From an uncultured Erythrobacter sp. (lineage in GTDB: Bacteria; Pseudomonadota; Alphaproteobacteria; Sphingomonadales; Sphingomonadaceae), in contig CANMTU010000001.1 of NCBI GenBank assembly GCA_947501005.1, forward strand, positions 830,501 through 894,500: a DNA stretch of 64,000 nt, read 5' to 3'. Of the stretch, positions 30,486-35,668 are shown one piece after another. Numbering within the stretch: position 1 is the stretch's first letter; each line of letters opens with the position of its first letter. The notes under the pieces were generated by a model. The model was not told the DNA's origin, did not search any database, and saw only the letters and a program-made list of their open reading frames with translations. The position numbers and the translations under genes were made by a program.

Positions 30486-31604
30486 GTGGACGGATCGATA
30501 CCCTGGTGGATGTACATTCTCGGCTTCCCGCTGCTGCTGGGGCCGCTGGTGACCCTGCACGAGCTTGGCCATTATCTCGTCGGCCGGTGGTTCGGCGTCC
30601 ATGCGGAGGCGTTCTCGGTCGGATTCGGCAAGGAACTCGCCGGGTTCACCGACAAGCGCGGTACCCGCTGGAAGCTGAGCGCGCTGCCGCTCGGCGGTTA
30701 CGTCCAGTTCAAGGGCGACATGAACCCCGCCAGCATTCCCGACAAGGCCGAGATCGCCGCCGTTCCGCCGGAAGAGCGCGCGGGCAATTTTCACCATGCC
30801 GCCCTCGGCAAGCGGGCGCTGATCGTCGCCGCCGGGCCGGCGATGAACATCCTGATCGCGGTCGGCATTTTCGCCGCGTTCTTCATGGCTTTCGGCCGGC
30901 CGGTCGCGCCGCCGGTCATCGGCGGATTTGCGGAACGATCGGTCGCCCGGGCGGCCGGGCTGGAGGTCGACGACCGGATCGTTGCCATCGACGGCGCGCC
31001 GATCGACGATTTCACCCAGATCCGCGATCGCGTGGCTCTTTATCCCGGCAAGCCGATGACCGTGTCGGTCGAGCGGGATGGCAACCGGCAGGCGTTCGAT
31101 CTGGTGACGCAGGATTTTACCTTCACCGACGAGCATGGGAACACCGGCAGGATCGGCCTGCTGGGTATTCTCGGCGCGGCACCCGATTTCGAACCGGTCG
31201 GTCCGCTCCGCGCGGTCGGGCTGGCCGCCACGGAAAACCTGCGCATCGTGGGCATGATGATCGAAGGCGTGCGCCAGGTCGTGGTCGGCGACCGTTCGGT
31301 TCAGGAGCTTGGCGGGCCGGTCAAGATCGCCAAGTTCTCGGGCGAGAAACTGTCGCAGGGGCCGCTGCCTTTCATCGAGTTCGTGGCCCTGATTTCGCTT
31401 AACTTGGCATTCATCAATCTGCTGCCAATTCCCGCCCTCGACGGTGGGCACCTGGCCTTCTACGCGGCCGAAGCGGTCCGCCGGAAGCCGCTTGGCGCAC
31501 GCAGTACGGAGATCGCCTACAGGGCGGGCGTCGCGCTCGTTCTGGCCCTGATGGTCTTCGTCACGATAAACGATCTGGTGACGCTTCCCGGCATCGGGAA
31601 CTAA
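30486..31604 (+). CDS. rseP: RIP metalloprotease RseP
   Basis: HELGHYLVGRWFGV zinc motif, PDZ domain, NLLPIPALDGGHL. Confidence 0.96.
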   Translation: MDGSIPWWMYILGFPLLLGPLVTLHELGHYLVGRWFGVHAEAFSVGFGKELAGFTDKRGTRWKLSALPLGGYVQFKGDMNPASIPDKAEIAAVPPEERAGNFHHAALGKRALIVAAGPAMNILIAVGIFAAFFMAFGRPVAPPVIGGFAERSVARAAGLEVDDRIVAIDGAPIDDFTQIRDRVALYPGKPMTVSVERDGNRQAFDLVTQDFTFTDEHGNTGRIGLLGILGAAPDFEPVGPLRAVGLAATENLRIVGMMIEGVRQVVVGDRSVQELGGPVKIAKFSGEKLSQGPLPFIEFVALISLNLAFINLLPIPALDGGHLAFYAAEAVRRKPLGARSTEIAYRAGVALVLALMVFVTINDLVTLPGIGN

Positions 31605-31762: not shown

Positions 31763-34501
31763 ATGAACCGATTTGCGACTGCCGCGAAGCGCGATAGCAT
31801 CCGCCTCACGCGGCTGATGACAGGTCTGCTGGCAGGATCGGCGCTGGCCGGCCTCGGCGCACCCGCCTTTGCCCAGAGCACCGACGTGCCCGCAGGCACC
31901 CAGGCCGCCGGCGCGCAGCAGGCGCAAACCGTCGGCGTCGCGCCGACGACGGCGGAGCCGCAGGGCGACGTGGTGCGGTCCATCGCCGTATCGGGTGCCC
32001 AGCGGCTCGAGGCGCAGACGATCCTGTCCTACATCCAGCTGCGCCCCGGCGACCGGTGGAGCGCGGCCGTGGGCGACCAGGTCCTCAAGGATCTCGCCGC
32101 GACCGAGCTGTTCTCGGATTACAACGTCGCCAACGAGGGCGGCAACGTCGTCATCACCGTGGTCGAGAACCCGGTGATCAACCGCATCATCCTCGAAGGC
32201 AACGACCGGATCAAGAACGACAAGATCCTGCCCGAAATCAAGCTGGCGCCGCGGCAGATCTTCACCCGGTCCAAGGTTCGGGCCGACGTTTCCCGCATCA
32301 TCGAACTGTACAAGCGGCAGGGCCGCTTCGCCGCGACGGTGGAACCCAAATCGGTCCAGCTCAGCCAGAACCGCGTCGATGTCGTGTTCGAGATCAACGA
32401 AGGGCCGAAATCCAAGGTCCGTCAGATCAACATCATCGGCAACGAGAAATTCTCCGACGGCGATCTGCGCGACGAGATGGTCACCAAGCAGACCGGCGGC
32501 CTGCTGAGCTTCCTCAGCTCGAACACGAGCTACGATCCGGATCGGCTCGCCTTCGACCAGCAGCAGCTGCGCACCTTCTACCTCACCGAAGGCTATGCCG
32601 ATTTCCGCGTTGTCTCCGCCGTCGCCGAACTGACGCCGGACCGCGAGGATTTCATCATCACCTACGTGGTCGAGGAAGGCGAGCGGTACAAGTTCGGCGA
32701 CGTCCAGGTCGAAAGCCAGCTGCGCGATTTCGACAGCGCGGCGATGACGCAGCGCCTGCCGATGAAATCAGGCGACTGGTACAATGCCAAGACGGTGGAA
32801 AACACGGTCGAGCAGATCACCGAACTGGCCGGCACGTTCGGCTACGCCTTCGCCGACGTCTCGCCCAATTTCACCCGCAACCCCGACACCAAGACGATGG
32901 ACGTCACCTTCGTCATCCGCGAGGCACCGCGCGTTTATGTCGAGCGGATCGACGTGAACGGCAACACGCTGACGCAGGACAAGGTCATCCGCCGCGAATT
33001 CCGCGTGGCCGAGGGCGATGCGTTCAACAGCTTGGCGATCAAGCGGTCGGAAGCGCGGATCAAGTCGCTCGGCTTCTTCCAGGAAAACTTCGAGGTCACT
33101 CAGGTCGAAGGCAGCGCCCCCGACCGCGTCGTACTCGAGGCGAATGTCGAGGAGCAGCCGACCGGCGAACTGCAATTGTCGGCCGGCTTCTCGTCGCTGG
33201 AAAGCTTCATTCTCGCAGGCTCGATCCGGCAGCGCAATTTCCGCGGCCGTGGGCAGACGATCGGGCTCAGCCTCAATTACTCGCGCTATTCCAAGCAGGC
33301 GCAGGTGAGCTTTTCCGAACCCTATCTGTTCGACCGCAACATCTCGCTCGGCGCGGATGTCTATTATCGCCAGTTCGACAACGACTATTTCGATCGCGGG
33401 CAAAGCACCTATGCGCAATCGACCATCGGCGGGTCCGTCCGCGCCGGTGTGCCGCTCAGCGAATACATGTCGCTCATCGCGACCTACACGTTGAATTACG
33501 ACGAGGTCACGCTCGGTTCGCAATTCTTCGCCGACCGGGATGGTGACGGCGTCGCGACCTGCGATCCGCTCTTCGCCAGCCGCTATCTGTGCGAGGCGAT
33601 CGGCGAGCGTCTGAGCTCGATTTTCGGGCTGACCCTTAATTACAACAATCTCGACAGCGGTTTCCGTCCGACCCGGGGCGAATCCTTCTCGCTGACGGGT
33701 GAGATCGCCGGGCTGGGGGGCGACGTGAAATACGGGCGCCTGCGCGGACGCGGCGCCAAATACATGAATCTGGGCTCCAACTTCATCCTTTCCTTCACGG
33801 CGGAAGGTGGCTGGATCCGCGCTCTGGAGAACGACGCGGCACCCGGCTTCGACGACGTCCGCCTGAACGACCGGTTCTTCCTCGGCGAACCGCAATTCCG
33901 CGGCTTCGATATTCGCGGGGTCGGCCCGCGCATCGTGCGGCTGGCCTATCTCGATAACGACGCGGACCCCGCCACGCCGCCCGTTCTGCAGACGCTGGAA
34001 GAATTCCGCGAAAACAATAACGGGCGCAATTCCCTGGACAACGCGCTGGGCGGCAAGGCCTATTATCTGGGTCGGGCGGAGCTTGAAATACCGCTCGGCT
34101 CCGGCGCGCAGGAACTCGGCCTGCGGCCTTCGGTATGGGTGGACGTGGGATCGCTGTTCTCGGTGGAGCAGCCGGTGCTGCAGGATTATCCCACTGGCTT
34201 GCAGGCGCGAAACCAAGCTGGCGAACTGCTGTACCTCCAGCCGCAGGCAAATGCGGCCCCGTTGACGGTGACCACTCCGACGGCACCGGACGGCACCGCC
34301 TATGCGCCCGCGATCATTCCGAATACGAACTTCCGCGAGGTCTTCTACGGCGACAGTCCGAGCCCTCGCATATCGGTTGGCGTGGGCGTCAACTGGAACT
34401 CGCCCTTCGGTCCGTTCAGGATCGATGTATCTCACGTACTCAAGAAGCAGGAAGGCGACGATACGAAGACCTTCTCCTTCAATGTAGGAACGCAATTCTG
34501 A
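31763..34501 (+). CDS. bamA: Outer membrane protein assembly factor BamA
   Basis: Signal peptide, POTRA repeats, C-terminal barrel ending in FSFNVGTQF. Confidence 0.96.
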   Translation: MNRFATAAKRDSIRLTRLMTGLLAGSALAGLGAPAFAQSTDVPAGTQAAGAQQAQTVGVAPTTAEPQGDVVRSIAVSGAQRLEAQTILSYIQLRPGDRWSAAVGDQVLKDLAATELFSDYNVANEGGNVVITVVENPVINRIILEGNDRIKNDKILPEIKLAPRQIFTRSKVRADVSRIIELYKRQGRFAATVEPKSVQLSQNRVDVVFEINEGPKSKVRQINIIGNEKFSDGDLRDEMVTKQTGGLLSFLSSNTSYDPDRLAFDQQQLRTFYLTEGYADFRVVSAVAELTPDREDFIITYVVEEGERYKFGDVQVESQLRDFDSAAMTQRLPMKSGDWYNAKTVENTVEQITELAGTFGYAFADVSPNFTRNPDTKTMDVTFVIREAPRVYVERIDVNGNTLTQDKVIRREFRVAEGDAFNSLAIKRSEARIKSLGFFQENFEVTQVEGSAPDRVVLEANVEEQPTGELQLSAGFSSLESFILAGSIRQRNFRGRGQTIGLSLNYSRYSKQAQVSFSEPYLFDRNISLGADVYYRQFDNDYFDRGQSTYAQSTIGGSVRAGVPLSEYMSLIATYTLNYDEVTLGSQFFADRDGDGVATCDPLFASRYLCEAIGERLSSIFGLTLNYNNLDSGFRPTRGESFSLTGEIAGLGGDVKYGRLRGRGAKYMNLGSNFILSFTAEGGWIRALENDAAPGFDDVRLNDRFFLGEPQFRGFDIRGVGPRIVRLAYLDNDADPATPPVLQTLEEFRENNNGRNSLDNALGGKAYYLGRAELEIPLGSGAQELGLRPSVWVDVGSLFSVEQPVLQDYPTGLQARNQAGELLYLQPQANAAPLTVTTPTAPDGTAYAPAIIPNTNFREVFYGDSPSPRISVGVGVNWNSPFGPFRIDVSHVLKKQEGDDTKTFSFNVGTQF

Positions 34502-35193
34502 TGAAACTTCTCAGCAAAACCATCGCGGCCGCCGCTCTTGCCGGTGCCGCCTTCACCGCCATGCCGGCTTCGGCGCAGGTCAGCGGCAACATTGCCATCG
34601 TCGATGCGCCGCGCGTGTTGATCGGATCGACGGCCTTCCGCAACGCCTACCAGCAGATCGGCACGAACTATCAGGCGCAGGCGACGCAGATCCAGCAGAA
34701 GAGCCAGCAGCGCCAGACGCTGCTGCAGCAGCTCGACACGAACAAGGACGGGCAGTTCGATCAGGCGGAACAGCAGGCGGCGCAGAACGCCCCGCAAGCC
34801 GCGCAGATCCGCCAGATCGATACCGAACTCGAACAACTGAGCAGCCAGATCGAAATCGCGCGCGTCTATGCGATCGAGCAATTGTTGCAGCAATACCCCA
34901 CGGTGGTGCAGCAGGTGGTCGACCAGAATTCGATCCAGCTCCTGCTGACGCCCGATGCCGTGGTCTATGCGCCGGGCGCGGCGACGATCAACCAGAAGGT
35001 GACCGACGCGCTCAATACGCGGGTGCCTTCGGTTCAGGTGACGCCGCCGGCCAATTACCAGCCGACGCGCAATGCCGTGGGCGTGTATCAGGAAATCCAG
35101 GGCGTGCTGGGCGCCGCGCAGGCCGCGCAGGCGCAGCAGCAGGCCCAGCAGGGTCAGGCTCAGCCGGCGCAGCAGCAGCCGACCGGTCGCTGA
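34501..35193 (+). CDS. OmpH/Skp family periplasmic chaperone with embedded EF-hand-like loop
   Basis: Signal peptide, Gln-rich coiled coil, position after bam[13 protein letters not shown] loop at 34735-34770. Confidence 0.85.
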
Positions 35194-35215: not shown

Positions 35216-35668
35216 ATGAGCGAGACGGGTTTCGACGTGGTGGAGGTGCTGAAGCGCCTCCCCCACCGCTATCCCCTGCTGCTGGTCGACCGGGTGGCCG
35301 AACTCGTCCCCGACGAGCGGATCCACGCGGTCAAGGCGGTCAGCTTCAACGAGCAGTTCTTCCAGGGCCATTTTCCCGGCGCACCGATCATGCCGGGTGT
35401 GCTCCAGATCGAGGCGCTGGCGCAGGCCGCCGGCGTCCTCGCGGTGGAGAGTCTCGGCCTCGCCGGGTCGGGCAAGCTCGTCTATTTCATGGCGATCGAG
35501 AACGCCAAGTTCCGCAGCCCGGTGACGCCGGGCGTGCTGCTCGACCTGAAGGTCTCGTTCGTCCAGAAACGCGCCCGCGTCTGCAAGTTCGCGGGCGAAG
35601 CCTCGGTCGACGGCAAGGTGACCTGCGAGGTCCAGTTCACCGCCATGATTGCCGACGCGCCGGAATGA
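35216..35668 (+). CDS. fabZ: 3-hydroxyacyl-ACP dehydratase FabZ
   Basis: [44 protein letters not shown]. Confidence 0.97.

Follow-up and report, generated by a model that had tools for sequence, protein, structure and literature searches.

An EF-hand-like loop at the predicted tentacle tip of an OmpH/Skp homologue, and two skp types alternating at one locus among related genomes

Skp is a textbook ATP-independent chaperone, and in Escherichia coli its gene follows bamA, as it does in the window examined here, by which we mean the whole stretch of 64,000 nucleotides of DNA from an uncultured Erythrobacter sp. that was analysed. The E. coli protein (PDB 1SG2, 1U2M) and the one encoded in the window both belong to the OmpH family, match each other in fold by Foldseek and carry a hairpin tentacle. 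The tips of the E. coli tentacles have been reported to be basic (PMC9820271, PMC3458824), and its clients to enter from the tentacle bottom (PMC3458824, PMC9820271). No EF-hand has been described in E. coli Skp, whereas the window protein carries an acidic EF-hand-like loop at its predicted tip, together with a Gln-rich tail. The closest solved structure, whether the search uses a sequence profile (E 7.7e-9) or the fold (E 4.5e-5), is that of the Caulobacter OmpH-like protein CC_1914 (PDB 4KQT), which differs in having no EF-hand loop, its tip aligning without the set of Asp, Asn and Glu ligands. Within the family of the window genome there are also Skps of a plain type (G098, G100, G060 and Novosphingobium L033), which occupy the same rseP-bamA-skp-fabZ locus and belong to the same protein family, but end in a plain helical turn and are only 22-39% identical to the EF-type Skps of close relatives.

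Canonical EF-hand proteins share with the window protein the 12-residue ligand pattern and the flanking helices (predicted in the latter), but EF-hands are usually paired, whereas the unit described here is single, scores under the cutoffs of the Pfam EF-hand models and forms part of a chaperone hairpin. Calcium-binding loops of the Dx[DN]xDG kind occur in many folds, and the survey of these loops makes no mention of Skp or OmpH (PMC3123361). Full-text literature searches, which extended to papers outside subscription, and searches of solved structures returned nothing relevant on a Skp or OmpH protein with an EF-hand, nor did the literature searched describe a metal site in Skp. If real, a Ca2+ site at the tentacle tip would give a handle, by the addition or removal of Ca2+ and the mutation of two residues, on the part played by tip order and charge in client capture and release.

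The skp locus and the predicted position of the loop

The relevant features of the window, all on the forward strand, are the following.

30486..31604 (+): rseP-type M50 protease with a PDZ domain, upstream of bamA (Pfam Peptidase_M50)
31763..34501 (+): bamA (Pfam Omp85 and POTRA), directly upstream of skp; likely start at MNRF, picked by eye at the signal peptide
34501..35193 (+): skp/ompH homologue, 230 aa, single copy (ORF and translation; Pfam OmpH; one genome match)
34501..34578 (+): signal peptide region, residues 1-26 (...PASAQ), disordered in the model (sequence; pLDDT <50 over residues 1-27)
34672..34734 (+): predicted outgoing hairpin helix, residues 58-78, the E-helix of the EF-hand-like unit (AlphaFold2, DSSP)
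34735..34770 (+): EF-hand loop, residues 79-90, at the predicted hairpin tip (translation; conservation in 92 homologues)
34762..34785 (+): predicted short F-helix, residues 88-95, starting within the loop end (AlphaFold2, DSSP)
34792..34926 (+): predicted return hairpin helix, residues 98-142 (AlphaFold2, DSSP)
35216..35668 (+): fabZ, downstream of skp (Pfam FabA-like)

The skp start codon overlaps the bamA stop (TGATG), and the 3.1-Mb genome contains one OmpH homologue matching the query. The protein passes the Pfam OmpH model (PF03938) over residues 30-171 by a narrow margin (32.8 bits; cutoff 32.4), and reaches 20.7 of the 237 bits required by PRK10780.1, the NCBIfam equivalog model of E. 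coli-type Skp; for this reason it is called here an OmpH/Skp homologue and not an equivalog of E. coli Skp. That it is such a homologue follows from family score, fold and gene position together.

Residues 79-90 fit the 12-residue EF-hand loop at positions 1, 3, 5, 6, 8, 9 and 12, and the full motif has no other match in the six frames of the window. A chance origin of the motif was rejected, since it never appeared when the mature protein was shuffled 200,000 times. The protein contains this one EF motif and no paired EF-hands; the Pfam EF-hand models remain below cutoff (EF-hand_5, 12.3 bits against 25.9) and, given also that the loop is unpaired, we call it EF-hand-like. Nevertheless, when the PDB is searched with a profile of the family, the loop aligns with EF-hand proteins (best E 0.0015). 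Searched as a degenerate DNA pattern, the motif has two matches in the 3.1-Mb genome, the other one being DANTDGAINIGE in L251 (G000:C1:1409044-1409079), which lies in a 173-aa lipoprotein-like protein (LAACGGG).

The AlphaFold2 model of the window protein, computed from six sequences as a monomer without an ion (mean pLDDT 74), gives the Skp fold, namely a small association domain and a long helical hairpin, for which Foldseek returns 4kqt, 1u2m and 1sg2. In the window protein a helix over residues 58-78 is followed by the loop, a helix over 88-95 and a further one over 98-142, so that a helix-loop-helix is predicted around the loop with a pLDDT of only about 57-64 there, while a plain homologue is modelled with a helix over 64-92, an ordinary turn and a helix over 99-140. 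On the strength of this predicted fold and of its Foldseek matches, the loop caps the tentacle hairpin of Skp in the model. Support for the loop as the turn of an antiparallel hairpin also comes from four basal EF-type members, in which each arm is extended by four residues (26/39 versus 22/35, counted from the loop to fixed anchors), the equal difference that the loss of one helical turn per arm would be expected to leave. The mean net charge of the hairpin is -3.7 in the EF type versus +1.5 in the plain type. An earlier note on this DNA, made from the sequence, had described an EF-hand loop at 34735-34770 within the periplasmic chaperone after bamA; ORF translation confirms the loop, and the Pfam match, fold and gene position agree with the assignment of the protein, but the loop, which the note had embedded in the coiled coil, is placed by the model at the tip of the helical hairpin instead.

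Distribution and constraint of the loop

Homologues were sampled from 121 genomes of the family, 61 of the genus, samples of the class, phylum and order, and five named loci. The loop is present in all 59 homologues found in the 61 genus genomes searched, and in the wider family only in a subset of the sequences. One of the 59, from G463, matches the Skp of Qipengyuania xiamenensis (L031) along the whole 220 residues compared, which suggests that the genus of the window genome is Qipengyuania as GTDB defines it. Outside the family the loop is absent from the class-, order- and phylum-level matches inspected, which were the best matches only; the idea of a general feature of Sphingomonadales or of alphaproteobacteria is therefore unsupported, none of these best matches having the loop. 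In trees built on alignment columns without the loop and its flanks, all 81 loop-bearing sequences form one clade (support 0.99), and in a larger tree of the same kind 92 of 93 do so (support 0.979). The earlier note had named loss of the loop residues in orthologues as what would count against its reading. The coordinating residues are in fact kept, both in the 59 genus homologues and in the 92-member clade, and conservation across Sphingomonadales, where the note had proposed to look for it, holds for the genus and one clade and fails in close relatives of the same family that lack the loop.

The sequence that falls outside the main EF clade, L215 (G663), has the loop DANKDGQLDDSE, is poorly placed (0.25) and scores 18.1 bits with Pfam EF-hand_5; it may represent a second gain of the loop or a clade member that the tree does not resolve.

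Constraint on the loop is uneven along its length. In the 92 homologues of the EF clade, Glu12 is invariant and Asp1 is found in 91, and both rank among the five most conserved of the 230 columns. Positions 3 and 5 hold only Asn or Asp, in the combinations N3/D5 (73), D3/N5 (11), Asp at both (5) and Asn at both (3), position 4 between them is free (N, G, S, K or R), and a hydrophobic residue stands at position 8 in every sequence except one. The EF-hand ligand pattern (1, 3, 5, the backbone at 7, 9 or water, and 12) is thus found both in the sequence and in the constraint among the 92 homologues. Synonymous codons vary at the loop (for Glu12, GAA in 42 and GAG in 41), indicating that the constraint acts on the protein. 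Elsewhere in the protein, Ala25 and Gln26 at the end of the signal peptide are invariant in the 92 homologues, and Ala93 in the F-helix is conserved in 89 of them.

Proposed role of the site

These data make it fairly probable, from sequence constraint and the predicted fold, that a single, true EF-hand-like Ca2+ site closes the tentacle hairpin, acting as a structural cap at the predicted tip. A helix-loop-helix would here replace the plain helical turn, with Asp1, Asn or Asp at 3, Asp or Asn at 5, the backbone at 7 and Glu12 holding one Ca2+ per subunit and, if the protein is a trimer, three per trimer. Bound Ca2+ would order the tip and neutralise part of its acidic charge, so that the acidic hairpin of the EF type might still show a non-repulsive rim to incoming outer-membrane proteins. 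The related genomes that live without the loop indicate that Skp as such does not need it.

A structural site that is filled all the time is no less likely than one that responds to Ca2+. The Ca2+ concentration in the periplasm tracks that of the medium, and at sea-water-like levels it would saturate the site; in Ca2+-rich surroundings of this kind the site would be filled nearly always, and this makes a constitutive structural site more likely than a switch. A Ca2+-responsive switch, which the earlier note had raised as a possibility and in which filling of the site by outside Ca2+ would alter client capture, client release or the tip-to-tip pairing of trimers, and outer-membrane protein delivery would follow Ca2+, is accordingly judged unlikely, even if the canonical ligand set includes the residues used in sensor EF-hands and lineages differ in having the site, as might suit habitats differing in Ca2+. 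Against it stand not only a site always full in sea-water-like Ca2+, but also the failure of our searches to find a partner or a regulatory element and the nature of the single Gln-rich unit, which has no counterpart to the hydrophobic surface that pairs of sensor EF-hands expose. The entry of clients at the tip in E. coli Skp (PMC3458824) speaks in favour of such a switch.

Two further readings dispense with Ca2+ altogether. A merely convenient, metal-free polar turn at the hairpin tip would agree with the simple polar turns that plain-type Skps have there, with the frequency of Asp and Asn in turns and with the absence of Gly6 from 19 of the 92 homologues, in which Asn, Lys, Arg or Gln is found at this position and in which Ca2+ binding may be weak. 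Such a turn, however, needs no invariant Glu at 12, no Asp at 1 and no restriction to Asn or Asp at 3 and 5 beside a free position 4, and this ligand-by-ligand pattern makes the explanation hard to sustain and, in our estimate, improbable. A preference for another ion over Ca2+, for example a lanthanide, Mg2+ or Mn2+, seems more improbable still: position 2 is Thr in 85 of the 92 homologues and not the Pro typical of lanmodulin, and the lanmodulin (LanM) model gives 10.5 bits against a cutoff of 135, although Asp9, present in 35 of the 92, would be in keeping with such a preference. Periplasmic EF-hand proteins that bind lanthanides do exist, lanmodulin being the example (PMC9260416). The structural Ca2+ cap is the reading that we prefer.

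Two skp types at one locus, and a loop in the adjacent BamA

EF-type and plain-type skp genes both occur between bamA and fabZ among closely related genomes, and the order rseP-bamA-skp-fabZ is kept in all 25 genomes compared. A tree of rseP, bamA and fabZ groups genomes of the two types together, pairing G002 with G098 (0.995), G017 with G004 and G100 (0.999), G000 and L031 with G060 (1.0), and G681 with G669 (1.0). Between such mixed neighbours the flanking proteins are 68-80% identical and the Skps, without the tip, 22-39%; the Skp of G098 instead shares 67-70% identity with plain Skps from other genera, those of G004, G060 and G100 among them. The topology of the flanking genes is rejected for Skp (delta logL 777, AU p 6e-100). 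The Skp tree shows a single change of Skp type, and the flanking-gene tree of the 25 genomes shows at least seven; the latter figure is no rate, the genomes having been picked partly for being mixed in Skp type. On a rough, weakly resolved BamA tree (last 150 residues, 190 loci) the count is 18. Skp is a short protein and its trees are moderately supported (EF clade 89, plain clade 91, ultrafast bootstrap). Loci at which the types alternate include G002/G098, G009/G104, G015/G105, G017/G100, G060/G000 and G681/G669 (L252-L271).

The alternation of divergent types at the same locus fits repeated replacement of the whole gene, and the sequence comparisons suggest several events in which skp by itself was either exchanged in place or sorted from old duplicates. 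In-place replacement is the simplest reading. The sorting of an old tandem skp pair would also explain the alternation, but less simply, and no genome with both types was seen: in the family nearly every genome has one match, two full copies were not encountered, and where a second match occurs, as it does in a few genomes, it is weak and covers the protein only in part. Replacement of bamA along with skp is unsupported in the one pair examined, G098 versus G002. The BamA of G098 is closer to that of G002, an EF-type genome, than to that of G004 in all segments but the last, which is tied, and closer to that of G002 than to that of G060 in all segments but the first.

For a housekeeping chaperone one would not expect two gene types to be exchanged in place repeatedly while rseP, bamA and fabZ beside them remain congruent. 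Only tentatively can it be suggested that skp is a two-type locus, Ca2+-tipped or plain, whose alternatives are repeatedly exchanged as a single gene and kept by selection, whether through Ca2+ in the habitat or through phage or bacteriocin pressure acting via outer-membrane assembly. If this were true, the tentacle tip would be a tunable, horizontally replaced part of outer-membrane assembly. Close relatives differing in Skp type offer natural pairs for comparison.

A further motif is found in the adjacent gene. A surface-type loop of the form FFxDxDGDGxxxC...RxLCEA lies in BamA at window position 33533, near residue 629 of the ORF. It is present also in L031 and in L252-L271, and by its sequence is another Ca2+-like Dx[DN]xDG motif, set beside two Cys. 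Among BamA fragments, many of which are too short to include it, Dx[DN]xDG is found in 67 of the 108 that stand beside an EF-type Skp and in 14 of the 129 others. A link between the EF loop of Skp and this DxDGDG loop was considered and rejected, since the BamA loop is found beside Skps of either type. In some BamAs a second Dx[DN]xDG follows the DIRGVGPRV motif.
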